A program made the translations under genes and the position numbers. A stretch of DNA of 25,504 nt from a virus, in IMG/VR virus record IMGVR_UViG_3300017751_000198, positions 1-25,504 of that record; one strand, given 5' to 3'. Below the pieces are notes generated by a model. That model ran no database searches and had not been told where the DNA came from. It saw only the letters and a list, made by a program, of their open reading frames with translations. Shown here in pieces: positions 1 to 23,946 of this stretch (its first letter is position 1; each line of letters begins with the position of its first letter).

Positions 1-169
1 CTATACCTTTACAATTGGATCTCCTTTATATATTTCAACAAGTGGAGGTGGTTTAACTGATAATGTTGGTGCTTTTGGAAGTGGAGATTATGTTAGAATA
101 GTAGCTTATCAATTAACAGATAGAGTAATATACTTTAATCCTGATAATACTTGGGTTGAGTTACCTTAA
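1..169 (+). CDS. Virion structural protein, C-terminal end (partial)
   Basis: The frame starting at base 2 is open from the window edge to a TAA at 167-169 and gives 55 residues, ending in NTWVELP. The 5' part lies outside the window. The piece is rich in Gly, Ser, Thr and aromatic residues with short alternating beta-type segments (GGGLTDNVGAFGSGDYVRIV), the texture of phage fibre or decoration proteins. It ends 11 nt before the methyltransferase gene on the same strand, so it is probably the promoter-proximal gene of that small cluster. No enzyme motif is visible. The structural call rests on composition and context only. Confidence 0.6.
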   Translation, partial: YTFTIGSPLYISTSGGGLTDNVGAFGSGDYVRIVAYQLTDRVIYFNPDNTWVELP

Positions 170-180
170 TAATTAACAAT

Positions 181-750
181 ATGGAATATATATCTCAAAG
201 TTTAACATTTGAAGAAAATGAAATAATATTTTCAAATCCAAATTATGAAAATGAAATTTTTGAAGTAATGATGGATTGGGAAGATACTTTAATGTCTGCA
301 TCTGCAGCTTATGTATGTGAAGGAGGAGGAGATATACTTGAAATAGGATTTGGAATGCATATATCAGCTGATTACATTCAATCTCATACAATTAACTCAC
401 ATACTATTATAGAAAACCACCCAGATATAATTCCAAAAGCAAATGAGTGGGCTGCAAATAAACCTAATGTTACTATAGTAGAAGGAGATTGGTATGATGT
501 AAAAGATACTTTAAGTACTTATGATGGGTTATTTTATGATACTTATGGAGATTATAACATACAATACTTTGCAGATATATTACCTTCATTAATGAAAGAA
601 GGTGGAAGAGCAACCTGGTGGAATGGTGTTCCTAGTGGTAGTAACTTTTTTGGGTTATCAAATATTACTTATGATGTATATGATATTAATCCTCCTCAAA
701 ATAGTTATTTTAACCATAATAAATATTATTTACCTAAAAAGCAGTTTTAA
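181..750 (+). CDS. SAM-dependent methyltransferase, GAMT/RMT2 (guanidino/arginine) type
   Basis: A 189-aa class I methyltransferase. The SAM-binding motif I is LEIGFGMHI (about residues 53-61), followed by an acidic motif II region (IIENHP). Three features match the guanidinoacetate N-methyltransferase / arginine N-methyltransferase 2 family rather than generic methyltransferases: VMMDWEDTLM at residues 29-38 (family pattern VM-x2-WE-x3-M), GFGM, and the YDTY motif at 119-122. In that family the Glu after Trp and the Asp of YDTY contact the guanidino group, and both positions (E34, D120) are kept. It is shorter at the C-terminus than animal GAMT (about 236 aa). The gene sits between two virion-protein genes with 3-11 nt gaps. 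The target could be an arginine in a virion protein or a small guanidino compound; the sequence does not say which. The family call is fairly strong, the substrate unknown. Confidence 0.75.
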   Translation: MEYISQSLTFEENEIIFSNPNYENEIFEVMMDWEDTLMSASAAYVCEGGGDILEIGFGMHISADYIQSHTINSHTIIENHPDIIPKANEWAANKPNVTIVEGDWYDVKDTLSTYDGLFYDTYGDYNIQYFADILPSLMKEGGRATWWNGVPSGSNFFGLSNITYDVYDINPPQNSYFNHNKYYLPKKQF

Positions 751-753
751 ATA

Positions 754-1473
754 ATGGCATTATTTACCTACACTATTCCTGTTCAACTTGGTTCTATATA
801 TACCACACCTACAACAGGTGTTTATACTGTATTTTCAGATTGTCATAATGCTCCTAATGGGACAGTTTCTCAACCAGCAGTAGGTACTGCATCATCAGTC
901 ACTAACATTGCAGTACAAGGACTTCCAGGGAGAGGTAGTGTTCAATATCGTATAGCAAGAACATTTGGTTATGCTGATCTTAGTGCATATGCTCCTAATA
1001 TAACATCTATTGGTTTCCGAGTTGATGGGTTAGGTACAATTGGAGGAACCCAATCAGTAATAGTTTGTGCAGCAGATGCTTTTAGTGGTGGTTCTTCTCT
1101 ATTTCTTTCTGGAACAGATATGGATGTTAATGGTGCATGGAATATAAATACCCCCTTCTCCTCAGCAACTACATTTCAAAATTCATCATTTACAATTACT
1201 GGAAATGCTGCAGCCGTCTCAGCGGCCAATAATAATCAAAATATCAATTTTATTATACTTAATTATACTTATGATTATTTAATAGTAGCTCCTCCGGTGG
1301 GAAGAAGTGGGTTTGATCTTACAAGTACAGTTGACTTAACTGCAAATCAACTTGCAGTTACTGGGGTTTATCAATCAGGCTACCCGAATGATGTAAATGG
1401 TGTTGTATCAGGAAATGTAGGTAGTGTCAATGGTATATTATCAAGTAATATTCAATTAATAATTGGAGTATAA
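754..1473 (+). CDS. Probable tail fibre / adhesin-type virion protein
   Basis: A 239-aa protein beginning MALFTYTIPVQLGS, only 3 nt after the methyltransferase stop. It is rich in Gly, Ser, Thr, Asn and Val with many short alternating hydrophobic stretches, so it is probably all-beta. It has no signal peptide, no membrane segment and almost no charged residues; lysine is essentially absent. It has two Cys (about residues 30 and 105). These traits fit a fibre tip, adhesin or decoration protein, and the high Ser/Thr content makes it a possible acceptor for the glycosyltransferases encoded next. I do not recognise a named family. A promoter-like site starts directly after its stop, so it appears to be the last gene of its unit. 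Confidence 0.55.
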   Translation: MALFTYTIPVQLGSIYTTPTTGVYTVFSDCHNAPNGTVSQPAVGTASSVTNIAVQGLPGRGSVQYRIARTFGYADLSAYAPNITSIGFRVDGLGTIGGTQSVIVCAADAFSGGSSLFLSGTDMDVNGAWNINTPFSSATTFQNSSFTITGNAAAVSAANNNQNINFIILNYTYDYLIVAPPVGRSGFDLTSTVDLTANQLAVTGVYQSGYPNDVNGVVSGNVGSVNGILSSNIQLIIGV

Positions 1474-1474
1474 C

Positions 1475-1503
1475 TTGGATATGTAATAATTTATTTTTAT
1501 ATT
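1475..1503 (+). promoter_or_regulatory. Putative sigma70-type promoter for the glycosylation cassette
   Basis: TTGGAT (1475-1480), a 17-nt spacer and TATATT (1498-1503) stand 32 nt before the ATG of the 900-aa glycosyltransferase. The same box pair with the same spacing recurs at 22641 (polymerase) and 24396 (gp32). The bases after TATATT (TATTG) also partly match the late-type element seen elsewhere, so both activities are possible. No transcript data are available. Confidence 0.5.
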
Positions 1504-1535
1504 TATTGAATGGTTATTAAAAGAATACTAGTTAT

Positions 1536-4238
1536 ATGAAAAAAATCTTATTTATTGCCCCCCATTTATCTACAGGAGGATTACCACAATATTTAACTAA
1601 AAAAATAGAACTTATTAAAGATGAATTTGATGTTCATCTTATTGAATGGGTAGATTGTACTGGGGGAAAATTAGTAGTACAACGAAATAAACTTTTAGAT
1701 TTAGTAGATAATCATAAATTCTTTACATTAGAAGAAAATAAAGAAGAATTATTTTCAATAATTGATAAAATCAACCCAGATATTATTCATTTAGAAGAAA
1801 TACCTGAATATTTTATGGATGATGTTATATCAAGAAAACTATATTCAACAGATAGAAATTATTTTTTAATAGAAACATCCCATGACTCATCAATGGATAC
1901 AAATAATAAACTATTCTTCCCAGATAAATTTATGTTTGTATCAAATTGGCAAATTGAGCAGTATAAAAACATAGATATACCTAAAATACTAGTTGAATAT
2001 CCCATTGAATATATCCCCAGACCTAATAGAGAACATGCGTTAAAACGTTTAAATTTAGATCCTTCTAAAAAACATATTTTACATATTGGTTTATTTACTT
2101 CAAGAAAAAACCAAAAAGAATTTTTTGAATATGCTAAAGCTTTACCTGAATATGAATTTCATAGTGTAGGAAATCAAGCAGATAATTTTAAATGGTATTG
2201 GGAACCCTTAATGAAGGAAAAACCTGATAATTTAACATGGTGGGATGAAAGAACGGATGTTGAGAATTTTTATCAATCAATGGATTTATTTTTGTTTACA
2301 TCTAGAGGAACAGCTAATGATAAAGAAACAATGCCTTTGGTTATTAGAGAAGCTTTATCCTACCAAATTCCTCAATTATTATATAATTTAGAAGTTTATC
2401 AAAATTATTTTGAAGATTATGATACAATCAATTATTTAGATTTTAATGATTTTAATGAAAATGTTAAATTAATTAAAGATCAATTTAATAGTTCTGCTGA
2501 AGTTTTTGAAGAAGAAGAAGCATATGTGGTATGTACTTATCCAAAAACACAAGCTGTAATAGATACTACAATTGAATGTATTAAATCTTTAAGAAAAAAT
2601 AGTAATAGAAAAATTATTATATCATCCCATTGCCCCGTACCCAAAGAACTACAGGATATGGTTGATTATGTTTTTTACGAAAAAAATAATTTATTAACAA
2701 AACATACTTTTTATTCTGGATATTGGATGTATGGGGGTCAATATGATACCCATGTTAATTTAAAAGGGGAAGATAATGATAGATATCATGGCCCTGCTTG
2801 TTATACCTCATTTTACAATCCAGCTACATTTGCTAAAGGGTTAGGAATTGAAAAATTATATTATATTAATTTTGATTATCTCCTTAAGGACAGTAGTTAT
2901 ATAGATTACATATCCCAAAAATTAAATACTCATGATACTTTTTTTGGTGAGTTTGAAGCACAAGAAGGCAAATGTTATTATACTTATTTTTTTGCAGCTA
3001 AACCAGAAGCAATTTTAAGACATTGTCATTTTATAGAAACTGAAAACCAATATAATAGTCTTATGAATAAGTATGGGGCTGAATCTAATGGTATAGAAAA
3101 TCTATATTATCATATATTTAAACATAATATTAATAATTATATAGAACCTAGAAAAAAATTCGAATCCGATGCTGAAAAATATTTTGATTTTGAAGATTAT
3201 TCAATGGTTGAATATTATACTATTCTTCCCACAGATGTAAATAATCATTTTTGTCCTTGGATAACTATCTCAAATGCTAAAGAAAGTAAAGATATTTATT
3301 ATACTGTAGAAAAAAATGGGGAAATTATTATTAATAGATTACTAGAAGTTAGAGGAAAATATCATTTTTGGGATTTAGTAAAATATGATTTAGAAGATAT
3401 TTTTACAGTTACTTTTGATGTTAGAGATACAGTAACGGGGGAAACAGTAAAATATCACAAATTTGAATTAAATAAAGAATATTTTTTAAATATAATGCCT
3501 AATAATGGTATGTTTAATTGGAAAGGAGATAGAATTAATTATAATCCTAAAATTAAATTAATGCATTTGGTTACTGAACCCGATACAAATGAAAAAGAAA
3601 TTCGTTCAGTAGAAAATATTAAAGAATTTTGTCAATTAACAGGTATTAAATATGAACAAAGAATAAATAAAATCTGGACTGATTTACCTCCAAAAGATAC
3701 TTGTAATAGACCAGATGATGTTCAAACCAAACCAGGACATTATAAATTAGCTCCAGGACATTATGGGTGTTATAAAGCCCACACAAATGCTATTTTAGCT
3801 AAAGATAATAAAGAATATGATTACATATTAATTTTTGAAGGTGATGTAATTATAGATTCTTCATTTAATGAATTGACAGAATCATTAAATCGTTTTAGTA
3901 AATTAGCTCAAGATTATGACCAAGATATTGTGGGATTTGGAAACCCATATAAAAATAGAAATTTAAATGGTCCTAAAATCGAAGATATATTTACTAATGT
4001 TACCCCATTTATTCCTGCTCAATCTTATTTAATTAATAATAATAAGTTAAATTTAATCCAAAATAAAATAAAAAATACTAAATGGGATGCTTTTGATATG
4101 TGGGTATGTAATGTAGCTCAATTAAAAGTAAGCACTGCTGAGAAAATATACACTAAACATATACCAGGATTTAGTATTATAGAACAAGAATTTAAGGGAA
4201 TGGACGAAAATAGTCCTGAAATTTATACAACAATATGA
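1536..4238 (+). CDS. Three-part glycosyltransferase (GT4-like, unknown middle, GT25-like)
   Basis: A 900-aa cytoplasmic protein with no signal peptide or membrane segment. Residues 1 to about 310 look like a GT-B retaining glycosyltransferase: the start KKILFIAPHLSTGGLPQYL matches the GT4 nucleotide-sugar loop, and ETMPLVIREAL carries an E-x7-E motif at E264 and E272. A middle region (about 325-560) begins VVCTYPKTQAVIDTTIECI and contains YYINFDYLL, resembling a GT-A-like glycosyltransferase fold without a clear family. The C-terminal part (about 675-900) resembles GT25, the LPS glycosyltransferase family: it starts KLMHLVTEPDTNEKEIRS, has GHYGCYKAHTNAILA near 745, and an FEGDV motif near 767 in place of the usual ED-D metal-binding motif. 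One polypeptide may thus add several sugars. Its stop overlaps the next start by 4 nt (ATGA), indicating coupled translation. Confidence 0.75.
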   Translation: MKKILFIAPHLSTGGLPQYLTKKIELIKDEFDVHLIEWVDCTGGKLVVQRNKLLDLVDNHKFFTLEENKEELFSIIDKINPDIIHLEEIPEYFMDDVISRKLYSTDRNYFLIETSHDSSMDTNNKLFFPDKFMFVSNWQIEQYKNIDIPKILVEYPIEYIPRPNREHALKRLNLDPSKKHILHIGLFTSRKNQKEFFEYAKALPEYEFHSVGNQADNFKWYWEPLMKEKPDNLTWWDERTDVENFYQSMDLFLFTSRGTANDKETMPLVIREALSYQIPQLLYNLEVYQNYFEDYDTINYLDFNDFNENVKLIKDQFNSSAEVFEEEEAYVVCTYPKTQAVIDTTIECIKSLRKNSNRKIIISSHCPVPKELQDMVDYVFYEKNNLLTKHTFYSGYWMYGGQYDTHVNLKGEDNDRYHGPACYTSFYNPATFAKGLGIEKLYYINFDYLLKDSSYIDYISQKLNTHDTFFGEFEAQEGKCYYTYFFAAKPEAILRHCHFIETENQYNSLMNKYGAESNGIENLYYHIFKHNINNYIEPRKKFESDAEKYFDFEDYSMVEYYTILPTDVNNHFCPWITISNAKESKDIYYTVEKNGEIIINRLLEVRGKYHFWDLVKYDLEDIFTVTFDVRDTVTGETVKYHKFELNKEYFLNIMPNNGMFNWKGDRINYNPKIKLMHLVTEPDTNEKEIRSVENIKEFCQLTGIKYEQRINKIWTDLPPKDTCNRPDDVQTKPGHYKLAPGHYGCYKAHTNAILAKDNKEYDYILIFEGDVIIDSSFNELTESLNRFSKLAQDYDQDIVGFGNPYKNRNLNGPKIEDIFTNVTPFIPAQSYLINNNKLNLIQNKIKNTKWDAFDMWVCNVAQLKVSTAEKIYTKHIPGFSIIEQEFKGMDENSPEIYTTI

Positions 4239-5191
4239 AAATATGTCATGTAGATCCAGGGTGTGGGTTAACCATACCTCCAAAAGATTGGGGGGCAATT
4301 GAAAAAATTATTTGGGAGTTTGAAGTAAATCAAACTGTACTAGGTCATGATTCAACCCATAAAATGGCAGCTGATATTCAACCTGGAGAATTTGACGTTG
4401 TACACTGCCATGTTGCTAATTTAGCAAATAGTTTAAAAGAAAGAGGTATTCCTTATATTTACCAATTACATGATCATCATGTTTTACATTATGGTAAAGA
4501 TTCTCATGTGTATAAAGAAAATTTAAAAGCAATTGAAGGATCATTAATATCCTTAATGCCTGCTAATTGGTTAGTAGATTATTTTAACCACCCAAAATGT
4601 GTTTATTTTTCCCATGGGGTTAATATTGATGAATTTTATCCTAAAAATATTAAAAAAACCACTCCTTCCAATCCAAAATTATTAATGTTAGCTAATAATG
4701 GTTTAGGTGGAGATCGTGCATTTGATAGAAAAGGATTTCAATTTGGAATAGGATTAGCTATGTTAAATAATTTAGAAATTACTGTAGCTGGACCTTCTAA
4801 TAATAAACACTTTTTTAATAAAAATCTTTGGACATTAAATTATCCAAAATTAAATTTAGTATTTGATACACCAAACACAGAATTATTAGATTTATACCAT
4901 GATCATGATATTTTTATCCATCCTACAATGTTAGAAGCAGGTCATCCTAATTTAACAATGTTAGAAGCTCTATCATCAGGTTTACCTGTTATTGCTGACT
5001 GGGAGATGGAAGTTGATCTATATGGGTGTTGGAGAGCACCCCGTGATGTATTTGAAATGGATAGAGGACTAAAAAATATATTAAATAATTGGGATTTTTA
5101 TTTTCCAAATTGTGTTAAAACAGCTCAAAATTTGTCTTGGTTAAACAGAACAAAAGATTTAATTAAAATTTATAAATTATATGCCTTATAG
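4235..5191 (+). CDS. GT4-family glycosyltransferase
   Basis: A 318-aa GT-B-type glycosyltransferase. The N-terminus MKICHVDPGCGLTIPPKDWG, followed by AIEKIIWEF, corresponds to the GT4 start in which a Gly-rich loop and GGAE-R-type helix contact the acceptor. DVVHCHVANLAN at about 53-64 and YIYQLHDHHVL at about 74-84 match the second Rossmann strands of the N-terminal lobe. The C-terminal signature is IFIHPTMLEAGHPNLTMLEA, then LSSGLPVIAD; the two conserved Glu (E234, E244) are two residues further apart than in the usual E-x7-E motif. It is short for the family (usually 350-400 aa). The start overlaps the previous gene by 4 nt and the end overlaps the next gene by 11 nt, so the three genes are one translationally coupled cassette. 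Sugar and acceptor are unknown. Confidence 0.78.
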   Translation: MKICHVDPGCGLTIPPKDWGAIEKIIWEFEVNQTVLGHDSTHKMAADIQPGEFDVVHCHVANLANSLKERGIPYIYQLHDHHVLHYGKDSHVYKENLKAIEGSLISLMPANWLVDYFNHPKCVYFSHGVNIDEFYPKNIKKTTPSNPKLLMLANNGLGGDRAFDRKGFQFGIGLAMLNNLEITVAGPSNNKHFFNKNLWTLNYPKLNLVFDTPNTELLDLYHDHDIFIHPTMLEAGHPNLTMLEALSSGLPVIADWEMEVDLYGCWRAPRDVFEMDRGLKNILNNWDFYFPNCVKTAQNLSWLNRTKDLIKIYKLYAL

Positions 5192-6887
5192 TTACGGAGA
5201 ATTTAAACAAGAAATAAAAAATCATATATCTTCAATATTACCTCAAACATCAAAAATATTAGATGTAGGTCCAGGTTGTGGTACTTATTCTCATCTACTG
5301 AAAGAATTTGGATATATTGTAGATTGTGTTGAAATATGGGAACCTTATATTCATAAGTTTAATTTAAATCAACATTATGATAATGTTCATTTAAGTAATG
5401 TTATGGATTTTGATATTACCCCTTATGAATATATTATAATGGGAGATATATTGGAACATCTTTCTTCTGAAGATGCTATTTTATTCTTAAAAAAGATAGA
5501 AAAAAATAAACAAAAAGTTTTAGTAGCTGTACCTTATGAATATAAACAAGGAGAACATGAAGGAAATATTTTTGAAACCCACCTTCAACCAGATCTAACC
5601 CCTGAAATAATGAAACTTAGGTATCCTAATTTAAAATTACTTTATGGAGATAATAAATATGGATATTACATTAATTATAATTTAAATATGAAAGATATAT
5701 TAATGCAAGAATATAATAATTTAACAAAAACTTTAAAAATACCACTATTTCCACAAAACCACATATTAATTAATTTTGTTAATGGTGCTAAAGTAGAAGT
5801 AAAAGGAGAAAATTCTAAAAAATATCAAATTCAATTTATTAATAAAAATAATAATAAAATTATTCATGAATCTACTATATCTAATAATATGTGGACTAAA
5901 ACAAATGTTCAATATTTTATAGATTATAAAATAATAGTTAAAGATTTAGAAGAAAATACAATAACAGAACATTATTTTAATGCTAAAGATAAAAAAGTTT
6001 ATATCCATTTTGCTTCAAAGGCATTAGGTGATACTATAGCATGGTTCCCATATGCTGAAGAATTTAGAAAAAAACATCAATGTGAATTAGTAGTATCTAC
6101 TTTCCATAATGAAATGTTTGAAGAAAATTACCCAAATATTAAATTTGTAAAACCCGGGGAAACACAATATGATTTATATGCTATGTATGAAGTTGGATGG
6201 CATTATAATGAAAATCAAGAAATAAATTATAATAAAAATATTTCTAATTTTAGAGAAATAGGATTGCAAGATTGTAGTTCAGAAAGTTTAGGAATTTCTC
6301 CTATAGAAATAAAACCTAAACTAACCTATAAAAATACAGGATCAACAGTAAAAGGTGATTATGTTGTGATAGCACCTCATGGTTCAGCTCATGCTAAATA
6401 TTGGAATTATGAAGGTGGTTGGCAAACTGTAATAGATTATTTAAATAATAAAGGGTATAAAGTAGTAATGATTACACAAGAACCTTTAGGAGATGAATGG
6501 CATGATTCTAAGTTAGGAGGTACTTTAACTGGAGTAATAGATAAAACAGGAAATTATCCTTTAAGTGAAAGAGCTAATGATATGATGAATGCTAAAGCTT
6601 TTATAGGTATTGGGAGTGGTTTAAGTTGGTTAGCTTGGGCTTTAAACACCCCTGTAGTAATGATATCAGGATTTAGTGAAGCTTATAGTGAATTTAAAGA
6701 CTGTGAAAGAATTTCATCTCCTAAAAATAAATGTAGTGGGTGTTTTAATAGAACACAATTGGATGCAGGTGATTGGGAATGGTGTCCTGATCATAAGGGG
6801 ACAAGTAGAATATTTGAATGTACTAAATCAATCACCCCAGATATAGTAATTGCTGCTATAGATCGTCAATTAGAAAAATTTTCCTGA
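5181..6887 (+). CDS. Methyltransferase fused to TibC/BAHT-type protein O-heptosyltransferase
   Basis: A 568-aa fusion. Residues 1 to about 165 are a class I methyltransferase: ILDVGPGCGTYSHLL (from about 24) is motif I, VDCVEIWEPYI is motif II and MGDILEHL precedes the catalytic region. Residues from about 190 match the bacterial autotransporter heptosyltransferase family (TibC, Aah): an N-terminal beta domain (INFVNGAKVEVKG and NNMWTKT), then YIHFASKALGDTIAWFPYAE (about 273), the GT9-like VVIAPHGSAHAKYWNY (about 393), and a four-cysteine cluster C518-x2-C521-x13-C535-x11-C547. In TibC a cysteine cluster of this kind forms an iron-binding finger needed for assembly of the dodecamer. Family members O-glycosylate Ser/Thr of autotransporter adhesins with heptose. 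In a phage the likely acceptor is a virion protein (inference). The start lies inside the previous gene (11-nt overlap). Confidence 0.8.
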   Translation: MPYSYGEFKQEIKNHISSILPQTSKILDVGPGCGTYSHLLKEFGYIVDCVEIWEPYIHKFNLNQHYDNVHLSNVMDFDITPYEYIIMGDILEHLSSEDAILFLKKIEKNKQKVLVAVPYEYKQGEHEGNIFETHLQPDLTPEIMKLRYPNLKLLYGDNKYGYYINYNLNMKDILMQEYNNLTKTLKIPLFPQNHILINFVNGAKVEVKGENSKKYQIQFINKNNNKIIHESTISNNMWTKTNVQYFIDYKIIVKDLEENTITEHYFNAKDKKVYIHFASKALGDTIAWFPYAEEFRKKHQCELVVSTFHNEMFEENYPNIKFVKPGETQYDLYAMYEVGWHYNENQEINYNKNISNFREIGLQDCSSESLGISPIEIKPKLTYKNTGSTVKGDYVVIAPHGSAHAKYWNYEGGWQTVIDYLNNKGYKVVMITQEPLGDEWHDSKLGGTLTGVIDKTGNYPLSERANDMMNAKAFIGIGSGLSWLAWALNTPVVMISGFSEAYSEFKDCERISSPKNKCSGCFNRTQLDAGDWEWCPDHKGTSRIFECTKSITPDIVIAAIDRQLEKFS

Positions 6888-6897
6888 TATTTATAAC
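6886..6897 (+). promoter_or_regulatory. Late-promoter-like element before the long fibre gene
   Basis: GATATTTATAAC overlaps the stop of the heptosyltransferase gene and ends 18 nt before the fibre ATG. It is one of seven related elements found just upstream of structural genes (consensus TAATATTTATAA followed by C or T). No -35 box is visible. Confidence 0.45.
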
Positions 6898-6915
6898 AAA
6901 AATCAATAGTACACT

Positions 6916-8796
6916 ATGGCATTAACTTTATCAAATCAGGGAATAGCAGCAGGTCAAATAGTTAAAGCATCTGAAATATCTCAATCGATAGATGCTTTTA
7001 CTGGAGCAGAAGCATATGATATTACATTATCAGGTTCATTATATCTTCCAGATAATACTCATATGGGTATAGGAGTATTACCCTCAGCTATAGCTGGAAC
7101 TAAAATTCATTTAAAAGGGGGAGATGCTACACAAGATCCTCTAATATTATTAGAAGGATTTAATAACACCGACTCCGCTACTGTTGGATTTAAAAATAAT
7201 CAAGCAAGATGGGATGTAGGTTTAGCTGGTGGAAGTCAAGATTCTTTTATTATAAACAATACAGATGTTTCTATCCCCTCAGCTTTTCTTATAGATTATT
7301 CTTCTTCAAATGCCCTTATAGCTAGAAATCCTAATGGTACAGAGGCTTCACAGCAAGTTGGTATTAATTGGCCTTATGGTCAAATGGCAGGAACCCAAAA
7401 AACCCTTCATGTTAGTGGTTCAATAACAGCTTCCGGTAAGATTTATGGTGAATCATTTACCTTTGCTGATGGAACAGAACAAACTACAGCTGGAGGAGGA
7501 GGAGGAACTCCAGGAGGAGTAAATACACAAGTGCAGTTTAACAATAATGGAAATTTTGATGGCTCTTCCAATTTTTTATTTGATGGAAATAATGTAACAG
7601 CTATTGGTTTCACAGGTAGTCTTGAAGGTACATCTTCTTGGGCAGGAGAAGCATTTACTTCTTCCATTATAAGATTATCTGAAGGTAATATCCCGTTTGG
7701 TAATGCTCAAAATATATCAACTCAACATTCTACTTTAAAATATTTCTTTTCAAGTAATGAATTATATGCCCCTGAAATGTCTGCTAGTGTATTTCAAGGA
7801 GGTCATTTTACAGGATCCGCAATTTCAGCTTCAGAAGCTGGTGTTACTATGCGTATAGATAAAAACAACATATACTCTGATAGACCTAATAGAATGTATA
7901 TTGGTAATGAAAGTACAAATTCAAATGCATCATTAATGTTTGTAGTTGGTGGTACGGGCACATCTGCAAATTCAGCAATTCTTATAAATTCAAACCAGGA
8001 AGTAATGTTTGGTAACCCAGCTACAGCTTATAGCTATCCTTTAGGGTTTAATTCTGGTGAGATAGGTTCCTATGGTCAATTTACAAATAATAATGCCGAC
8101 TCAGCATCATTGTTAGCTATTATGGGAACTAATGGTGATAGTGATGGATTATTATATGTTGGTAGTGATGACTCAAAAGGTGGAGGAATGTCGTTTAGAG
8201 GAGATGCTGCTGGGGGTTATGGAAATTTATTACAATTAAATGCTAATAATATTGAAATATATCGTGCTGATCCAACCACAGAAGATGCAATACCCGTTAT
8301 CTCAATACCAACAAGTGAAGGTAAAAATATAGCAAATATTAATATAAATAGTAGTAATAACTTATCAAATGCCCCTGAATATTTTGGTTTAGCAGCACAC
8401 CCAACTCTCAATACTATTCCATTTAGAAGAACTTACCCAATCCCATCATTTACGCTGGGTCCTGGTAGTGGTAACCCTACAGCTATTGAAATACCTTGCC
8501 AACAAGCAGGTTCTTATGTTATAACATTATATTTAAATGATAATGCAGGTGGTTTTAAATGTCACACTCTTAAAAAAATATTCCTTTATGGTGTTAATAT
8601 ATCAGGTGCTACACCTGTACAAGAAAATGGTTCTCCTACTTCCATATACGACTTTGGTGATGCATCTCTACAAGGTAATGTAACAGCTCAATTAGTTGCA
8701 GCTGTTGCAAAAGTTGAATTAGAAATTATAAACAATGCATTAACAGCAGTAGCCGTAGGGGGTTATGTAGAAGTAGATTTCCTACCAGTACCATAA
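6916..8796 (+). CDS. Long tail fibre protein
   Basis: A 626-aa virion protein. The start MALTLSNQGIAAGQIVKASE, followed by ISQSIDAFTG, is a recurring N-terminus of phage fibres, probably the virion-attachment part. LHVSGSITASGKIYGESFTF and the later FTGSLEGTSSWA are shaft repeats typical of marine and freshwater phage fibres (GS-l-GTaSWA type). A glycine hinge G193-G197 followed by TPGG splits the shaft. The C-terminal 140 residues, from FRRTYPIPSFTLG, form a separate beta-rich domain with two Cys, probably the receptor-binding or trimer-closing tip. There is no chaperone/autocleavage motif that I can see. It follows the glycosylation cassette by 28 nt and has its own late-type element, so it is expressed with structural genes. 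It is a candidate substrate of the heptosyltransferase. Confidence 0.7.
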   Translation: MALTLSNQGIAAGQIVKASEISQSIDAFTGAEAYDITLSGSLYLPDNTHMGIGVLPSAIAGTKIHLKGGDATQDPLILLEGFNNTDSATVGFKNNQARWDVGLAGGSQDSFIINNTDVSIPSAFLIDYSSSNALIARNPNGTEASQQVGINWPYGQMAGTQKTLHVSGSITASGKIYGESFTFADGTEQTTAGGGGGTPGGVNTQVQFNNNGNFDGSSNFLFDGNNVTAIGFTGSLEGTSSWAGEAFTSSIIRLSEGNIPFGNAQNISTQHSTLKYFFSSNELYAPEMSASVFQGGHFTGSAISASEAGVTMRIDKNNIYSDRPNRMYIGNESTNSNASLMFVVGGTGTSANSAILINSNQEVMFGNPATAYSYPLGFNSGEIGSYGQFTNNNADSASLLAIMGTNGDSDGLLYVGSDDSKGGGMSFRGDAAGGYGNLLQLNANNIEIYRADPTTEDAIPVISIPTSEGKNIANININSSNNLSNAPEYFGLAAHPTLNTIPFRRTYPIPSFTLGPGSGNPTAIEIPCQQAGSYVITLYLNDNAGGFKCHTLKKIFLYGVNISGATPVQENGSPTSIYDFGDASLQGNVTAQLVAAVAKVELEIINNALTAVAVGGYVEVDFLPVP

Positions 8797-8828
8797 TCAA
8801 ACAAAAATAGCAATTTTAACAAATAATT

Positions 8829-8841
8829 TAATATTTATAAT
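8829..8841 (+). promoter_or_regulatory. Late-promoter-like element before the 83-aa gene
   Basis: TAATATTTATAAT, an exact consensus copy, ends only 3 nt before the ATG at 8845. If it is a -10 box, transcription would start at or inside the start codon, giving a leaderless or internally started message. This spacing is the main argument against a simple promoter reading. Confidence 0.4.
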
Positions 8842-8844
8842 AAG

Positions 8845-9096
8845 ATGGAAAAAAAAGTTTTAACAAAAGAAGAAATTCAATCTCTAACTGATTTAAAAAC
8901 AAAATATAGTCAGTTAGTAAATGTTTTAGGTGAAATTGAAATTCAAAAAATGGATCTTAATTTAAGAAAAGAGCAAATTAAATCAAATTTAATTTCAATA
9001 AAAGAAGAAGAAATTAAAATAGGAAAAGAATTAGAAGAAAAATATGGGAATGGAACTATTTCATTAGAAAAAGGTGAATTTTCCCCAACAGAATAA
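8845..9096 (+). CDS. Small coiled-coil protein of unknown function
   Basis: An 83-aa highly charged protein. Residues about 8-66 form one long helix with heptad-like hydrophobic spacing (LKTKYSQLVNVLGEIEIQKM and onwards), predicted to be a coiled coil. It ends in a short tail with EKYGNGTISLEKGEFSPTE, where YG-x-G-x-I and a terminal G-x-F are reminiscent of small conserved proteins found beside tail genes in other phages of this type. There are no Cys, Trp or membrane segments. It lies between the fibre and sheath genes, preceded by a late-type element and followed by a 52-nt gap. It may be a chaperone, scaffold or minor virion component; no function can be assigned. Confidence 0.65.
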   Translation: MEKKVLTKEEIQSLTDLKTKYSQLVNVLGEIEIQKMDLNLRKEQIKSNLISIKEEEIKIGKELEEKYGNGTISLEKGEFSPTE

Positions 9097-9115
9097 ATTT
9101 TTAACAGACCCTCAT

Positions 9116-9127
9116 ATATTTATTATC
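9116..9127 (+). promoter_or_regulatory. Variant late-promoter-like element before the sheath gene
   Basis: ATATTTATTATC ends 21 nt before the sheath ATG. It differs from the consensus by TT for TA after TATTTA. It lies in the 52-nt gap after the coiled-coil gene, which otherwise holds nothing recognisable. Confidence 0.35.
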
Positions 9128-9148
9128 AAAATATAACATTTAAACAAC

Positions 9149-11716
9149 ATGGCAGAAACATTAATTTCCCCAGGAGTACTAGCAAGAGAAAATGATCAAT
9201 CTCAGATTACTTCTCAACCTATACAAGCTGGTGCAGCATTAGTAGGACCTACAGTAAAAGGTCAAGTCAATATTCCAAAACTTATAACTACCTACAGTGA
9301 GTATCAAGCTAACTTTGGTACTACTTTTGATAGTGGATCTGACGAATATACATTTTTAACATCAATTTCAGCATACAATTACTTCCAAAACGGAGGTACT
9401 TCGTTAATTGTTACTAGAGTAGCTTCAGGTTCATTTAGTTCAGCTACCTCTTCAACAATTTTCAATGATCAAGAAACTGGAGATGTACTTTTAGGAACTA
9501 ATTTATTAGGATCTTGGACATCAGGTGGTGAAAATGGTGCTGCCTTTGAAAACACAGTAACCCCTTCTACAAGTGGAACTGGAACAGGAATAGTATTAGC
9601 AGTAACAGCTTCAAACGTAAATGGTAAATTAGTTGACACAGCAGATGCTTTATTAGGATCTATTACAACTAATACAACTACTGCAGGAGCCGGTTCTTAC
9701 TCTGTTAATTTAACAAATGGATCCGGAACAGGTGCCGTTGCTACAGTAGTAGTAACAGGAACAACTGCTCCAACAGTTACTGGAATTACTGTAACTACAA
9801 GCGGATCTGGATATATTGCTACAAATGTATTAACAATCCCAGCAGGTGCTTTAGGAACTGGACAGTTAATAACTGGTGATGATATTTTAGCAGAAACCGC
9901 AGCTACTCCAATTGGAAACGTAACAGGTCCATTTACAGTAGCACAATCCTCAACATCAGGAACAGGTACAGGAGCAACAATAGCAATAACGGGTGATGGA
10001 GCCAATGCTTTATCAGCAGTATCCGTTGTAGATATAGGTACTGGGTATGTTGTAAATGACACTATTACAATAACAGCTGCAGATTTGATTACAGCTGGTT
10101 TTGCGGGTGCCGCAGGTGATTTAGTAGTAACAGTTTCTGCAGGAATGTTACAAGACTCAACAGCAGTAGAAATTACATTAATTGCTGATGATATATTTGT
10201 TGAAACAGTAGGAGTACAAGTTACTACAGCTGGATCAGGATATGCAGTAGGAGATACATTAACAGTAGCAGCAGCAGACATGGGTAACCCATCAGCTGCC
10301 TTAGTATTAACATTAGTAGATGCAGATATTTTAGATGCAAATGCTTTCACATTAGAAACAATTGGTGAAGGAATAATTATGAATAGTGATGGTGCTTTAG
10401 CTTCAAACGGAGTTTTAACAAATGGTACATCTGATAATATTAGATGGGAAATTGTTTCACCAAACACATCATCGGGTACATTTAGTGTAATTATTAGACA
10501 AGGTAATGATACTACAAGAGCAAAATCAGTACTTGAAAGCTTTAACAATGTATCATTAGATCCAAAAGCTTCAAATTATATTTCAAGAATAATTGGAGAC
10601 CAAAAACAAGTAGTTAGAGGATCTGGAACGGATGTTTATTTACAAACAAGTGGTTCTTATGCTAATGCTTCAAGATATGTAAGAGTAAAATCAGTAGCAT
10701 ATAAAACACCAGATTATTTAGATAATGCTGGAAATGCTAAATCTGTATACACAGCTTCAATTCCAGTAGCAGCTTCAGGTGCATTTGGAGATGCAGTAGG
10801 TACTATTTTAACAGGAACTGGTAATTATTACCAATACATTGATGGTAATGATACTCAAGGATTAAAAGATGGTAATTATACAACAGCATTTAATTTATTA
10901 GCTAATAAAGATGATTACAAATATAACATTATTTCATCCCCAGGATTATATCAATCAGGATACTCTTCAATATTAAACACTTTAATTTCAAATACTGAAA
11001 ATAGAGGAGATAATATTGTAGTATTAGATCTTGAACCATATGCTTCATCAATAACTGCAGTAACATCAACAGCAACTGCTCAGGATACTTCATATGCAGC
11101 TTCATATTGGCCATGGTGTATGGTAACTGATCCAGATTCAGGACAAAGAGTTTGGGTTCCAGCTTCAACATTAATTCCAGGTGTGTATGCTAATAATGAT
11201 AGAACAGCAGAAGCATGGTTTGCACCAGCAGGTATTAATAGAGGTGGATTAGGTCAAGTACTTCAAGCTGAAAGAAAATTAACCCAAGCTAATAGAGATA
11301 CATTATACACAGGTAAAGTTAACCCAATAGCAACATTCCCAGGTAGAGGAGTTGTAGTATTTGGTCAGAAAACATTACAAAATCAAGCAAGTGCTTTAGA
11401 TAGAGTAAATGTTAGAAGATTATTAATCGCACTTAAAAATTATATTTCACAGATATCTGATAACTTAGTATTTGAACAAAATACAGCAGCTACAAGAAAT
11501 ATATTCTTAAGTCAGGTTAACCCATATTTAGAATCAGTACAACAAAGACAAGGTTTATACGCGTTTAAAGTTGTAATGAACGATTCAAATAATGGACCCG
11601 ATGTAATTGATAGAAATGAATTAAGAGGTGCTATATACATTCAACCAACTAAAACGGCAGAATTTATTTACCTAGATTTCAATATTCTACCAACAGGAGC
11701 TGAATTTCCTGCATAA
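9149..11716 (+). CDS. 18: Contractile tail sheath protein (gp18-like) with a repeat-bearing insertion
   Basis: An 855-aa tail sheath protein, about 200 residues longer than T4 gp18 (659 aa). The start AETLISPGVLARENDQSQIT and the following AALVGPTVKGQ are the classic sheath N-terminus, whose arm hooks the neighbouring subunit. The C-terminal domain is also standard: NPIATFPGRGVVVFGQKTL, then VNVRRLLIALKNYI and RGAIYIQPTKTAEFIYLDF. Residues about 140-395 are an insertion of low-complexity beta-rich sequence with three G-(S/T)-G-Y repeats, probably a domain on the outside of the sheath. The sheath polymer surrounds the tube and contracts at infection. It is followed 53 nt later by the tube gene, the usual order. 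The only unclear point is the role of the insertion. Confidence 0.95.
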   Translation: MAETLISPGVLARENDQSQITSQPIQAGAALVGPTVKGQVNIPKLITTYSEYQANFGTTFDSGSDEYTFLTSISAYNYFQNGGTSLIVTRVASGSFSSATSSTIFNDQETGDVLLGTNLLGSWTSGGENGAAFENTVTPSTSGTGTGIVLAVTASNVNGKLVDTADALLGSITTNTTTAGAGSYSVNLTNGSGTGAVATVVVTGTTAPTVTGITVTTSGSGYIATNVLTIPAGALGTGQLITGDDILAETAATPIGNVTGPFTVAQSSTSGTGTGATIAITGDGANALSAVSVVDIGTGYVVNDTITITAADLITAGFAGAAGDLVVTVSAGMLQDSTAVEITLIADDIFVETVGVQVTTAGSGYAVGDTLTVAAADMGNPSAALVLTLVDADILDANAFTLETIGEGIIMNSDGALASNGVLTNGTSDNIRWEIVSPNTSSGTFSVIIRQGNDTTRAKSVLESFNNVSLDPKASNYISRIIGDQKQVVRGSGTDVYLQTSGSYANASRYVRVKSVAYKTPDYLDNAGNAKSVYTASIPVAASGAFGDAVGTILTGTGNYYQYIDGNDTQGLKDGNYTTAFNLLANKDDYKYNIISSPGLYQSGYSSILNTLISNTENRGDNIVVLDLEPYASSITAVTSTATAQDTSYAASYWPWCMVTDPDSGQRVWVPASTLIPGVYANNDRTAEAWFAPAGINRGGLGQVLQAERKLTQANRDTLYTGKVNPIATFPGRGVVVFGQKTLQNQASALDRVNVRRLLIALKNYISQISDNLVFEQNTAATRNIFLSQVNPYLESVQQRQGLYAFKVVMNDSNNGPDVIDRNELRGAIYIQPTKTAEFIYLDFNILPTGAEFPA
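9571..10330 (+). repeat. Imperfect beta-repeats in the sheath insertion (protein level)
   Basis: Three related units are visible: GSGYIATNVLTIPAGAL (Tyr at residue 222), GTGYVVNDTITITAADL (Tyr 300) and GSGYAVGDTLTVAAADM (Tyr 365), 78 and 65 residues apart. Each is preceded by a Gly/Thr-rich strand and followed by an Asp-rich turn ending D-I-(L/F). The DNA copies have diverged, so this is an old protein-level repeat rather than a recent tandem duplication. Confidence 0.6.
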
Positions 11717-11729
11717 GAATTAGAGAATA

Positions 11730-11742
11730 TAATATTTATAAC
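11730..11742 (+). promoter_or_regulatory. Late-promoter-like element before the tube gene
   Basis: TAATATTTATAAC, an exact consensus copy, ends 27 nt before the tube ATG and is followed by an A-rich leader. It would give extra, sheath-independent transcription of the tube protein, which is needed in large amounts. Confidence 0.5.
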
Positions 11743-11769
11743 TGAATAAAAAAATAAAACAAACATAAA

Positions 11770-12258
11770 ATGGCAGTATTAGATCCAAACGAAATATTTT
11801 TCACAGCATTTGAACCAAAGGTAGCAAATAGATTTGTGATGTATGTTGACGGATTCCCATCATATATCATTAAAGGTGTAAGTGGATTAGGATTCGCACA
11901 AGATGAAATTGTACTTAATCATATCAATACTTATAGAAAAGTAAAAGGTAAATTAAGATGGAATGACATTACAATGCAATTATTTGATCCAATTACTCCT
12001 TCTGGTGCTCAAGCAGTGATGGAATGGGTTAGATTACATTATGAATCAGTAACTGGTAGAGCTGGTTACTCTGATTTCTACAAGAAAGACTTAACTATTG
12101 ATGTATTAGGTCCCGTAGGTGATGTAGTTTCAGAATGGATTATTAAAGGTGCATTTATCAAAGACGGTTCATTTGCTGATATGAACTGGGATTCTGATGG
12201 TGAAGCACAAAACATTGATTTAACAATTGGAATGGATTACTGCGTGTTAAATTTCTAA
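11770..12258 (+). CDS. 19: Tail tube protein (gp19-like)
   Basis: A 162-aa tail tube protein, practically the length of T4 gp19 (163 aa). Family features: the opening NEIFFTAFEPKVANRFVMYV, the segment SYIIKGVSGLGFAQDEIVLN that begins the tube beta-barrel, and KVKGKLRWNDITMQLFDPIT. The C-terminal strand DLTIGMDYCVLNF ends in an aromatic residue as in the family. Hexameric rings of this protein stack inside the sheath and form the DNA channel. It lies 53 nt after the sheath gene and is followed by a strong terminator, so sheath and tube form one unit. Codon use is typical of the highly expressed structural genes here. Confidence 0.93.
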   Translation: MAVLDPNEIFFTAFEPKVANRFVMYVDGFPSYIIKGVSGLGFAQDEIVLNHINTYRKVKGKLRWNDITMQLFDPITPSGAQAVMEWVRLHYESVTGRAGYSDFYKKDLTIDVLGPVGDVVSEWIIKGAFIKDGSFADMNWDSDGEAQNIDLTIGMDYCVLNF

Positions 12259-12283
12259 TAAGAATAAATATTTTTTTAAAAAT

Positions 12284-12310
12284 AGCTTGGCTTCGGTCAA
12301 GCTTTTTTTT
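12284..12310 (+). terminator. Rho-independent terminator with UUCG tetraloop
   Basis: The stem AGCTTGGC (12284-12291) pairs with GTCAAGCT (12296-12303) with one G-T wobble, closing a C(TTCG)G tetraloop, one of the most stable RNA loops. The run TTTTTTTT (12303-12310) follows directly. It sits 26 nt after the tube stop and separates the sheath/tube unit from the chaperone and tape-measure genes, so those can be made at lower levels. Confidence 0.9.
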
Positions 12311-12338
12311 ACATTATGTATGTATACATGACAATTAA

Positions 12339-12346
12339 GTTATAAC
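12339..12346 (+). promoter_or_regulatory. Partial late-promoter-like element before the chaperone gene
   Basis: GTTATAAC followed by TAAATAAA closely resembles the 3' half of the tube-gene element (TTTATAAC then TGAATAAA), but lacks the AATATT half. It ends 14 nt before the ATG at 12361 and could restart transcription after the terminator. An ATGACA / TAAAAT pair with 17-nt spacing overlaps it (12328-12356), but that pair would start transcription at the ATG itself. Confidence 0.3.
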
Positions 12347-12360
12347 TAAATAAAATTTAT

Positions 12361-13107
12361 ATGCAAGAATTAAAATTTCCTACTGAACAAGTAGAATTAC
12401 CTTCAAAAGGTTTAGTCTATCCTAAAGACAATCCTTTATCTTCTGGGGTCATTGAGATGAAATATATGACAGCAAAAGAAGAAGACATCCTTACAAATCA
12501 AAACTACATTAAAGATGGAACTGTTATTGATAGACTATTAAAGGCATTAATTGTAACAAAAATTAATTATGATGATTTAGTAGTTGGAGACAAAAATTCA
12601 ATTATGGTTGCTGCTAGAGTTTTAGGATATGGTAAAGATTATACATTTTCTTATGAAAATGAAACAGTAACAGTAGACCTATCAGAATTAGAACAACGAT
12701 GGATTAATGAAAGTGAATTAATTGAAAAAAATACTAACCAATTTTCATTTACTTTACCTCACTCTAAAGCTGAGATTACTTTTAAACTATTAAATAATAG
12801 AGATGACAGAGCAATTAAATCTGAAGTAAAAGGTTTAAAAAAATTAGATAAAAAATCATCTCCTGAGTTATCAACTCGTTTAAAGCATATGATTACATCT
12901 ATAAATGGGGATAGTGAAGTAAAAATTATTAGAGAATTTGTAGATAATTATATGTTGGCTAGAGACTCTAGAGCATTTAGAGAGCATGTAAAAACATTCC
13001 AACCTGATATTGATTTAACCTTTAACCACGTGAGTAGTGACGGCAGCGAAAGGGATGTTACCCTTCCGATGACCGTCAACTTTTTTTGGCCTGACAGCGA
13101 CTTATAG
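12361..13107 (+). CDS. 26: gp26-like T4_baseplate-family protein; probable tail assembly chaperone (E/G type)
   Basis: A 248-aa protein starting LKFPTEQVELPSKGLVYPKD, then MKYMTAKEEDILTNQNYIKD and RLLKALIV. This is the signature of the T4 base plate protein family PF12322 (T4 gp26 and relatives). It lies between the tube and the tape measure, the position of the E gene of P2 and the G gene of lambda, whose products chaperone the tape measure. Its last codons run through a T7 tract (13081-13087) and stop at TAG 13105-13107. A +1 or -2 shift on that tract would extend it into the frame ending at 13384, giving about 340 residues. The G+C-rich, structured 3' end (13030-13100) contrasts with the rest of the gene. 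The family is fairly certain; the chaperone role is inferred from gene order. Confidence 0.8.
   Translation: MQELKFPTEQVELPSKGLVYPKDNPLSSGVIEMKYMTAKEEDILTNQNYIKDGTVIDRLLKALIVTKINYDDLVVGDKNSIMVAARVLGYGKDYTFSYENETVTVDLSELEQRWINESELIEKNTNQFSFTLPHSKAEITFKLLNNRDDRAIKSEVKGLKKLDKKSSPELSTRLKHMITSINGDSEVKIIREFVDNYMLARDSRAFREHVKTFQPDIDLTFNHVSSDGSERDVTLPMTVNFFWPDSDL
13038..13078 (+). promoter_or_regulatory. Two-part RNA hairpin just upstream of the slippery T7 run
   Basis: Outer stem TGACGG (13038-13043) pairs with CCGTCA (13073-13078). Inner stem CG-A-AAGGG (13047-13054) pairs with CCCTT-C-CG (13061-13068), with one A-C mismatch, around the loop ATGTTA. The structure ends two bases before the T7 run. 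This is unusually G+C-rich for the genome, which points to selection on the RNA as well as on the protein. Confidence 0.55.
13078..13087 (+). other. Putative +1/-2 programmed frameshift site
   Basis: In the gp26 frame the codons are AAC TTT TTT TGG. tRNA-Phe on TTT (13084-13086) can re-pair with TTT at 13085-13087, giving +1 and entry at GGC 13088; a two-base backward slip on the same run gives the same frame. A -1 shift meets TGA at 13092 and is useless. The target frame is open only from 13073, after a TGA at 13070, and the gp26 frame closes at 13105, so the shift must occur in this short overlap. Confidence 0.6.
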
Positions 13108-13384
13108 GATCAATCTCTTCAAAACCATCCATGACATAGTTTATTATGGGCAGGGTGGTTACGATTGGAATACTGTTTACAGTATGCCTATATGGTTGCG
13201 AAGATTTACGTACCAACAGATCTATGAAGCAAGATCTGCAGAAGCAGAAGCAATGAAAAATGCTTCTAAAGGAAAGGGAACTAATTTTGATTTAAATAGT
13301 TCTACAAAAGATAAAATTCCTAAAGAAGCTTTACGATCAAAACCAACTTCCCCCAATTATGTTACGAAGGCATCAAAAAAATGA
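13088..13384 (+). CDS. Frameshifted C-terminal extension of the tail assembly chaperone (E'/T type)
   Basis: The frame is open from 13073 to TGA 13382-13384. Read from GGC 13088 it gives about 98 residues. The part before the first ATG (13184) looks like real protein: TYRINLFKTIHDIVYYGQGG then YDWNTVYSMPIWLRRFTYQQ. A run of aromatic residues followed by an MP-x3-R motif resembles second-frame segments of tail chaperones in other contractile phages. ATG 13184 would cut through this motif, giving a 66-aa product with no ribosome-binding context, so I read the region as the extension of the 248-aa protein. The tail end (about 13235 on) is Lys/Ser-rich and probably disordered. A single-base sequencing error in the T7 run would look the same. 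Confidence 0.65.
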   Translation, partial: GLTATYRINLFKTIHDIVYYGQGGYDWNTVYSMPIWLRRFTYQQIYEARSAEAEAMKNASKGKGTNFDLNSSTKDKIPKEALRSKPTSPNYVTKASKK

Positions 13385-13391
13385 TGCCTTC
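13366..13391 (+). terminator. Perfect 10-bp hairpin before the tape-measure gene (possible weak terminator)
   Basis: GAAGGCATCA (13366-13375) and TGATGCCTTC (13382-13391) form a perfect 10-bp stem with an A6 loop. The stop codon of the frameshifted extension (13382-13384) is inside the stem. No clean T tract follows, only TAATATTTATAA, which is itself a late-type element. It may be a weak terminator, an RNA stability element, or a means of lowering tape-measure expression. Confidence 0.45.
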
Positions 13392-13404
13392 TAATATTTA
13401 TAAT
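13392..13404 (+). promoter_or_regulatory. Late-promoter-like element before the tape-measure gene
   Basis: TAATATTTATAAT, an exact consensus copy, begins on the base after the hairpin and ends 14 nt before the tape-measure ATG. Confidence 0.5.
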
Positions 13405-13418
13405 AAAACATAGTTTAA

Positions 13419-22686: not shown

Positions 22687-23946
22687 ATGTTTTGGTTAGT
22701 AGAGTCTGAAGACCAATTTAATAGGTTTTGTAATTCAAATTATAAGGAAGCTTTTATTGAAGTTATACCTTATGATAATAGGACTCACCCAACTAAAAAT
22801 AAAATTTGTGCGGTTTATATTCGTCCGTTATTAGCGACAAAAGGTTTTATTGTACCCATTTCCCATAGTGAAACTTTAAATATTAATATAGACAATATAA
22901 TGCGCGTGTTATCACAATATAATAAGTTATATGTACGCGATAAGAAAGAATTTTTACATTATTTTCCACTAAAAACTCTTTTTGACATCACCCTCACATC
23001 TAATACGTATATACAAGAATACACACAAACCCACTCCTACTTCTATAGCAAAAAAGGAGATAGAAAAGATTTAAACCGCATTATTCCGATAGTAAAACAT
23101 TATGAATATTGTGAAAATACATTTAACATTTTAAAAGATAAAATCAATGAGCCAATCAATGAATTCAACAACACAAAAACTACAGTGGTATTCAACGCCT
23201 TGGAGCGAAGTGGTTTACGAATTGACAGAGAAAAATTCGAATCGTACTTTCACCCTATCGATGGAGAATACACCCACACGCAATACAACTTTAAAACCCT
23301 TACAGGACGACCAAGTAATAAATTCAAAGGAGTAAATTATGCCGCACTTAATAAAGACAACGGATCAAGAGAGTGTTTTATCCCTCGTAATAACAGTTTT
23401 ATTGAGTTTGATATTGGTGCTTATCATCCTACTTTGTTGGCTAAGTTGGTGGGTTATGATTTTGGTGATCAAGACATTCACATGGCCTTTGCGAAAATGT
23501 ATGGTGTGGATTACAAAAAGGCTAAAGAATTAACATTTAAACAACTATACGGAGGAGTTTTCGACCAATATAAAGATCTGGAATTCTTTAAAAAAGTACA
23601 AGTATATACTGACGATTTGTGGACTAAATTCCAAAATGAAGGCTTCATTGAGTGTCCTATTTCAAAACATCGTTTTGAAAAATCTAAGTTAGAAGATATG
23701 AAACCACAAAAACTGTTGAATTATTTACTCCAAAACTTGGAGACATCATACAACGTTTGTATATTGTGGGAAATAATAAAGTTATTAAAAAACAAAAAAA
23801 CAAAATTAATACTTTATACTTATGATAGTTTCCTTTTCGACTTTAGTAAGGAAGAAAAAGAATTATATAAAAGTATTATGAGTTTATTTAAAAAATATAA
23901 ATTACAAATAAAATCAAGTTATGGAGATACCTACAATTTCAAATAG
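22687..23946 (+). CDS. Compact family-A DNA polymerase with degenerate exonuclease-like domain
   Basis: A 419-aa polymerase of the PolA family. The TGRPS motif and following GVNYAAL (about 214-225) match TGR-lSS-x-NlQNiP. Motif A is FDIGAYHPTLLAKL with D242; motif B is K280-x3-F284-x3-Y288-GG; motif C is TYDSFLF with D380. Both metal-binding Asp are present. The usual His-Asp-Glu of motif C is Tyr-Asp-Ser, and the Arg normally four residues before the motif B Lys is Tyr276. The N-terminal 150 residues look like a 3'-5' exonuclease fold that has lost its DxE motif (EAFIEVIPYDN) and has HYEYCENT in place of Y-x3-D. It is far shorter than a Klenow fragment (about 605 aa). Arg codons of the CGN type are much more common than in the tail genes. 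Most T4-like phages use a family-B polymerase (gp43) instead. Confidence 0.8.
   Translation: MFWLVESEDQFNRFCNSNYKEAFIEVIPYDNRTHPTKNKICAVYIRPLLATKGFIVPISHSETLNINIDNIMRVLSQYNKLYVRDKKEFLHYFPLKTLFDITLTSNTYIQEYTQTHSYFYSKKGDRKDLNRIIPIVKHYEYCENTFNILKDKINEPINEFNNTKTTVVFNALERSGLRIDREKFESYFHPIDGEYTHTQYNFKTLTGRPSNKFKGVNYAALNKDNGSRECFIPRNNSFIEFDIGAYHPTLLAKLVGYDFGDQDIHMAFAKMYGVDYKKAKELTFKQLYGGVFDQYKDLEFFKKVQVYTDDLWTKFQNEGFIECPISKHRFEKSKLEDMKPQKLLNYLLQNLETSYNVCILWEIIKLLKNKKTKLILYTYDSFLFDFSKEEKELYKSIMSLFKKYKLQIKSSYGDTYNFK

Follow-up and report, generated by a model that had tools for sequence, protein, structure and literature searches.

A TibC-type heptosyltransferase beside a nearly proline-free collagen-like tail fibre in an uncultured phage: a probable fibre-glycosylation cassette

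Why should a phage carry, inside its tail gene block, an enzyme of the family that glycosylates bacterial adhesins, and which protein would it modify? The question is raised by the gene at positions 5181–6887 (+ strand) of a 25,504-nucleotide stretch of viral DNA, positions 1 to 25,504 of IMG/VR record IMGVR_UViG_3300017751_000198, referred to here as the window. The open reading frame is a real gene with a 568-residue product, in which a class-I methyltransferase-like domain is joined to a TibC/Aah-type heptosyltransferase domain. We propose, with a probability of roughly 0.62, that the cassette around this gene O-glycosylates, with heptose as the first sugar, serines of a proline-free collagen-like tail fibre encoded beside it. 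The enzyme family is already known and no new kind of enzyme is described; what is new is the setting in phages and next to collagen-like fibres. No paper tying phage or collagen-like proteins to the TibC-type family was found in the open-access literature searched.

Family, fold and domains of the fusion protein

The C-terminal domain (residues 192–568; positions 5754–6884, + strand) scored 312.9 bits at residues 193–562 against TIGR04414 (hepto_Aah_TibC, autotransporter strand-loop-strand O-heptosyltransferase; NCBIfam), for which the curated equivalog cut-off is 200. The models for lipopolysaccharide (LPS) heptosyltransferases (WaaC, WaaF and WaaQ; NCBIfam) gave 22–42 bits against cut-offs of 170–467, and identity with an LPS heptosyltransferase was rejected on these scores. 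The profile search thus placed the protein in the TibC-type family and not in LPS families only, as the original prediction, made from the sequence alone, had anticipated. TibC was also the sole match by sequence in the PDB (4rap/4rb4, E~1e-57; phmmer).

An AlphaFold model (25 rows) was obtained with a mean predicted local distance difference test score of 82.4, mostly above 90 from residue 190. Residues 192–568 of the model, with the strands of the barrel at 194–265, were superposed on the N-terminal beta-barrel and GT-B catalytic domain of TibC (residues 21–391) with Z 39.2 and a root-mean-square deviation of 2.5 Å; other GT-9 structures were far below TibC (3tov, Z 20.9; 1psw, 18.6; WaaC, 17.6–18.0; WaaC/WaaF overall, 17.6–18.6). 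Residues of TibC described in PMC4358343 were located in the viral proteins by means of an alignment of TibC with 76 of them. D284, K406, R464 and W483 of the window protein correspond to TibC D110, K230, R286 and W305; the catalytic Asp and the donor Lys and Trp are invariant in all 76 viral proteins, and the Arg is found in 75. In TibC, R286 contacts adenine and K230 and W305 contact the sugar (PMC4358343). Cys 518, 521, 535 and 547, located exactly where they had been read originally, align with the iron-finger cysteines C339, C342, C358 and C370 of TibC and are likewise invariant (76/76), from which an iron finger is predicted.

The N-terminal domain (residues 1–~180; positions 5181–5720, + strand) is of the class-I S-adenosylmethionine methyltransferase-like type. 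It carries motif I (ILDVGPGCG), and its structural neighbours are class-I methyltransferases (TylM1, Z 9.8; WbdD, Z 9.7; 3dli, Z 9.6), TylM1 and WbdD being sugar-pathway enzymes; structural matches below ~Z 10 were used solely for assignment of the class-I fold. The match to Methyltransf_23 was 22.1 bits, below the Pfam cut-off of 27. Motif and structural neighbours uphold the fusion to a methyltransferase-like domain that had been described from the sequence.

The same fusion occurs in three related loci: L002, the DNA of which is 99.95% identical over window positions 1–14884, L087 (578 residues) and L168 (576 residues). Since it recurs in L087 and L168, an assembly chimera was ruled out as its source. 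A different methyltransferase is fused in a phage-like contig within a metagenome-assembled genome (MAG) of Bacteroidota (L174), and glycosyltransferase fusions were found in L015, Microcystis phage Mel-JY01 and others. Fusion is nevertheless the exception, most viral relatives being stand-alone genes of ~400 residues; therefore nearly all of the relatives obtained by scanning IMG/VR with the window protein (198, of which 80 were kept) match just residues ~170–566. Loci without the fusion often hold FkbM methyltransferases, a carbamoyltransferase or an epimerase within the cassette.

Co-occurrence of the enzyme and a collagen-like fibre

In related loci, a large Ser/Thr-rich open reading frame of Gly-X-Y repeats lies upstream of the cassette. 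The window starts within the last codons of such a gene, the proposed acceptor (positions 1–169, + strand; 2–169 translates to the fibre C-terminus), and the remainder was seen upstream in a locus (L540) that is 100% identical over window positions 1–1603. The whole gene encodes 2,291 residues with at least 563 Gly-X-Y triplets, counted in runs of four or more. Ser occupies the Y position in 377 of these 563 triplets (67%), and the repeat region contains 2 Pro in 1,960 residues; in enzyme-positive loci overall, Y is Ser in 63–74% and Pro stays below 0.7%. For bacterial collagens, 19–31% Pro at X is given in a review (PMC8968730). The fibre matched PF01391 (Collagen; Pfam) with 627 bits in 18 stretches, the triple helix being putative, and also matched PHROGs families named tail fiber.

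The association was examined in contigs of at least 20 kb taken from IMG/VR motif scans (Gly-Thr-Ser ×4; Gly-Ile/Leu-Gln ×4) by motif and length alone, regardless of tail type; all counts from this sample are counts among the matches listed. TIGR04414 was detected in 20/50 Gly-Thr-Ser contigs versus 1/48 Gly-Ile/Leu-Gln contigs (Fisher p 2.5e-6; p 1.3e-5 minus two already-known contigs). When contigs with any PF00534 glycosyltransferase were compared, the enzyme was present in 19 of the 21 Gly-Thr-Ser contigs and in none of the seven Gly-Ile/Leu-Gln contigs (p 3e-5). The repeat lay within ~9 kb of the enzyme in 13 of the 20 enzyme-positive contigs, with 6–7 expected (p 0.0004–0.004). All 20 have at least 31 triplets, and the enzyme was found in 0/8 contigs with fewer than 30 (p 0.015).

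Within the tail lineage of the window phage, the fibre type accompanied 39/41 enzyme-positive loci versus 1/15 enzyme-negative loci (p=3e-10, uncorrected for relatedness, the enzyme-negative loci holding less upstream DNA). Among near-complete genomes, the Gly-Thr/Ser-Ser motif was present in three enzyme-positive phages (G001–G003) and had zero matches in two enzyme-negative ones (G004 and Flavobacterium phage immuto). The pairing of fibre and enzyme was also seen in Methylobacter, in Microcystis phage Mel-JY01 and in a 735-kb megaphage. In this megaphage (LR756501.1), 1,248 Gly-Thr/Ser-Ser motif matches were counted, around 103,561–105,026 and elsewhere, and a GT1 and heptosyltransferase pair is present.

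Cassette, acceptor and sugar donor

Open reading frames of the window and 80 loci, many of them on contigs that are fragments, were clustered. The recurrent order is GT4/GT25, GT1, heptosyltransferase, sheath and tube. The cassette was represented by GT4/GT25 in 48 loci, GT1 in 71, the heptosyltransferase in 80 and a small conserved protein in 64, and the tail module by the sheath in 79, the tube in 78, the hub in 64 and the tape measure in 46. The phage origin originally assumed for the gene is supported.

In the window, where all of the following genes lie on the + strand, the first cassette gene in this lineage encodes a 189-residue weakly methyltransferase-like protein (181–750; weak matches below cut-offs), followed by a 239-residue probable structural protein (754–1473; no family match). 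A 900-residue multi-domain glycosyltransferase (1536–4238) is GT4 in its N-terminal part (PF00534) and GT25-like in its C-terminal part (PF01755; Pfam), the latter with 20.8 bits against a cut-off of 24 and with 26.7 and 24.6 bits in homologues from L006 and L052. It is followed by a 318-residue group-1 glycosyltransferase (4235–5191; cluster in 71 of the compared loci) and the fusion gene. Downstream lie genes for a 626-residue fibre-like protein (6916–8796), an 83-residue conserved protein that precedes the sheath (8845–9096; open reading frame clustering), the 855-residue tail sheath with a Ser/Thr/Gly-rich repeat insert (9149–11716), a conserved neighbour, and the tail tube, which served as lineage marker (11770–12258). 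A 419-residue protein (22687–23946) resembles DNA polymerase DpoZ very weakly, its score of 13.2 bits lying far under the cut-off.

The tail gene order bears on an alternative in which the acceptor is another adjacent virion protein, namely the sheath, the tube or the 626-residue fibre-like protein. Almost every complete locus has sheath and tube after the enzyme, a large insert rich in Ser and Thr is present in the sheath of the window phage, and between enzyme and sheath there are often fibre-like genes that share an N-terminus. However, sheath and tube are core genes that are present whether or not the enzyme is, many enzyme-positive phages have short sheaths of ~570 residues, the family of the 626-residue protein occurs in only 10 of ~80 loci, and in other contigs neither sheath nor tube was recognised in the vicinity of the enzyme, which stands there beside collagen-like genes; we consider such an acceptor unlikely. 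The sheath insert was dropped as an acceptor hallmark, because sheath length varies (~568–900 residues) among enzyme-positive phages without tracking the enzyme.

The fibre-like family combines the shared N-terminus (...SQSxDAFTGxxAYDIxxSGSL) with a variable remainder (window 6916–8796; L016:9274–10089, L022:1723–4128, L031:1901–2539 and L033:2193–4454); its members are perhaps exchangeable fibres on one virion anchor. Alternative glycosylation cassettes were observed at the same pre-sheath site, with UDP-galactopyranose mutase (L131) and carbamoyltransferases (L131:3158–4261, L131:377–2044 and L047:6401–8038).

With the collagen-like fibre as acceptor, the C-terminal domain would, as the gene context suggests, attach heptose, probably drawn from ADP-heptose, through an O-glycosidic bond to Ser residues of the Gly-X-Ser repeats and possibly to Thr. 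By analogy with TibC, Asp284 would act as the base and the iron finger would be structural. In the peptide examined with TibC, Ser was modified and Thr was not, in keeping with the prevalence of Ser at position Y of the fibre. The neighbouring GT1 and GT4/GT25 enzymes would, judging from their location, lengthen the sugar, and the fused methyltransferase domain may cap or otherwise modify it, a task that in relatives may fall to a separate FkbM methyltransferase or a carbamoyltransferase. Densely placed sugars may stabilise the triple helix, or make it stiffer, in the absence of the usual proline and hydroxyproline, and may also shield the fibre. Of the original idea that the phage glycosylates its own receptor-binding proteins, the virion's own fibre is retained as the likely target; the generic fibre is better replaced by a collagen-like, Ser/Thr-rich and proline-free tail fibre.

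Several findings weigh against fibre glycosylation with heptose. The association statistics ignore shared ancestry, and the motif-contig test is uncontrolled for host phylum, a possible confounder; no enzyme was detected in 30 of the 50 motif-picked contigs, for some of which, not necessarily all, fragmentation may account. The Ser that TibC modified belongs to a beta-helical passenger and not to a collagen repeat. The hydrophobic tip of the beta-hairpin thumb of TibC, F265/V266, a dodecamer contact (PMC4358343), is replaced by polar D438/E439, with D438 in 76/76 viral proteins and the hydrophobic pair in 0/76. The donor residue T226 is replaced by Ser402, a conservative change (Ser in 76/76), and P300, a stereoselectivity residue of TibC that is S in AAH (PMC4358343), is Gly in 75/76, the window's protein included. 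The adenylyltransferase expected for heptose activation is missing from many records, GmhA was found in none of the 16 phage records searched, and a Winogradskyella MAG holding one enzyme-positive contig gave no HldE-II match. The patchy adenylyltransferase, the lack of GmhA and this MAG indicate that in some cases a sugar other than heptose may be transferred. In the model, a short helix at 439–444 stands where TibC has the thumb hairpin, and a TibC-like dodecamer is therefore not to be assumed.

The changes at P300 and T226, together with the GmhA and HldE-II results, speak for an alternative in which the enzyme modifies the same fibre with a sugar other than heptose. Against it, the counterparts of R286, which contacts adenine, and of K230 and W305, which contact the sugar, are conserved, and HldE-II-like genes occur in several enzyme-positive phages. 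A 134–136-residue HldE-II-like adenylyltransferase is encoded by three such phages of ~160 kb (G001–G003, of which two are closely alike); its best match was TIGR02199 (heptose-1-phosphate adenylyltransferase; 102–113 bits, under the cut-off of 181.5), with 65–66 bits against the model for glycerol-phosphate cytidylyltransferase. In a further enzyme-positive phage (G032, 147 kb; L542), a heptose-1-phosphate adenylyltransferase domain at C1:144669–145088 reached 183.2 bits, over the cut-off. The cytidylyltransferase-like gene of Mel-JY01 had no NCBIfam match. Among the motif-picked contigs, an adenylyltransferase was present in 4/20 enzyme-positive versus 0/30 enzyme-negative ones (p 0.02; two of the matches weak, 40 and 59 bits), and a match over the cut-off was found in 4/5 bacterial genomes holding enzyme loci, the fifth being the Winogradskyella MAG. 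Of the heptose-nucleotide pathway for which the original prediction had proposed a search, the phages searched contained at most the adenylyltransferase step, the full pathway not being found. From sequence, heptose is the likely donor sugar, and a different sugar appears rather unlikely, though somewhat less so than a different acceptor.

Targets outside the virion were also considered. The cassette might alter the host surface (adhesin, LPS or capsule) during infection, for example by blocking superinfection or adsorption to debris. Phage glycosyltransferases that alter host surface sugars are known, which counts in favour of this possibility. The natural substrates of TibC and AAH are bacterial surface adhesins (PMC4358343); however, the cassette genes sit inside the tail gene block, the profile assigns the enzyme to a protein-modifying family and not to LPS families, and the association with collagen would be left unexplained. 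This target is accordingly judged very improbable, and the host adhesin named as a second candidate at the outset received no support in this analysis. That modified phage DNA receives glycans from the glycosyltransferases is scarcely credible: DNA-hypermodifying phage glycosyltransferases have been reported (cited in PMC12619734), but the close sequence and structure neighbours are protein or LPS heptosyltransferases, and the genes lie among tail genes and are associated with a fibre type.

Extending the proposal of fibre glycosylation beyond the window, we tentatively suggest, at less than even odds, a collagen-directed TibC branch, mainly of phages, that glycosylates Y-position Ser, the sugar replacing Pro and hydroxyproline in the stabilisation of giant fibres, and that in a few bacteria, Methylobacter among them, also acts on collagen-like proteins that are secreted. 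Phage contigs repeatedly encode long Gly-X-Y fibres that are rich in Ser/Thr and almost lack proline, and TibC-type glycosylation offers a testable answer to the question of their stability. The results make it likely that uncultured aquatic phages have a system for the O-glycosylation of proteins, and suggest a modular enzyme set for producing glycosylated collagen-like material.

Phylogeny, hosts and known systems

A tree of 83 proteins, built by a quick method and with some long branches, sets proteobacterial and selenomonad enzymes with TibC (99 SH-aLRT) apart from a mixed set of 61, which comprises most viral proteins, contigs from Bacteroidota MAGs, Methylobacter and Nitrosotalea. In Methylobacter genomes (L170:4944–5807 and L171), a TibC-type gene of the phage-associated branch adjoins a PF01391 collagen-like protein, so that the pairing exists in a cell. 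Judged by the tail tube, Flavobacterium phage immuto (NC_055915; 61% identity) is the nearest relative in culture. Two enzyme-positive contigs fall in Flavobacteriales and Winogradskyella MAGs; therefore a host among the Bacteroidota is likely. Immuto shares the tail module with the window phage, and neither a TibC-type enzyme nor the Gly-Thr/Ser-Ser motif was detected in it.

The phage enzyme resembles TibC and AAH (BAHT; PDB 4RAP and 4RB4; PMC4358343) in domain order, fold (Z 39), catalytic Asp, donor Lys, Arg and Trp, and iron-finger Cys. It differs in its position outside the TibC/proteobacterial clade, in the polar thumb tip, where the model has no hairpin, in the T226 to Ser and P300 to Gly changes, in the methyltransferase-like fusion, and in having a collagen-like phage fibre in place of the autotransporter repeat partner; AIDA-type (strand-loop-strand) repeat families were absent from the window proteins scanned (NCBIfam, Pfam). 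By sequence profile the protein is a member of TIGR04414, yet it is not a canonical BAHT. The BAHT label first given to it holds for profile, fold and catalytic residues, and fails for the thumb tip, the repeat partner and the autotransporter clade.

Virion glycosylation in mycobacteriophages (Freeman et al. 2023, as cited in PMC12619734) is likewise phage-encoded and directed at the phages' own virion proteins. There, the C-termini of capsid and tail-tube proteins are reported to be glycosylated, whereas in the present case the sequences point to a TibC-type enzyme and a collagen-like fibre. In BclA, the collagen-like glycoprotein of Bacillus spores, and in mimivirus collagen, sugar is carried on Gly-X-Y repeats, as is proposed here, and for BclA a stabilising effect of the sugar via hydration has been suggested (PMC8968730). 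Mimivirus collagen is hydroxylated (PMC8968730), whereas the phage repeats are almost proline-free, have Ser at Y and appear to be served by a TibC-type enzyme.

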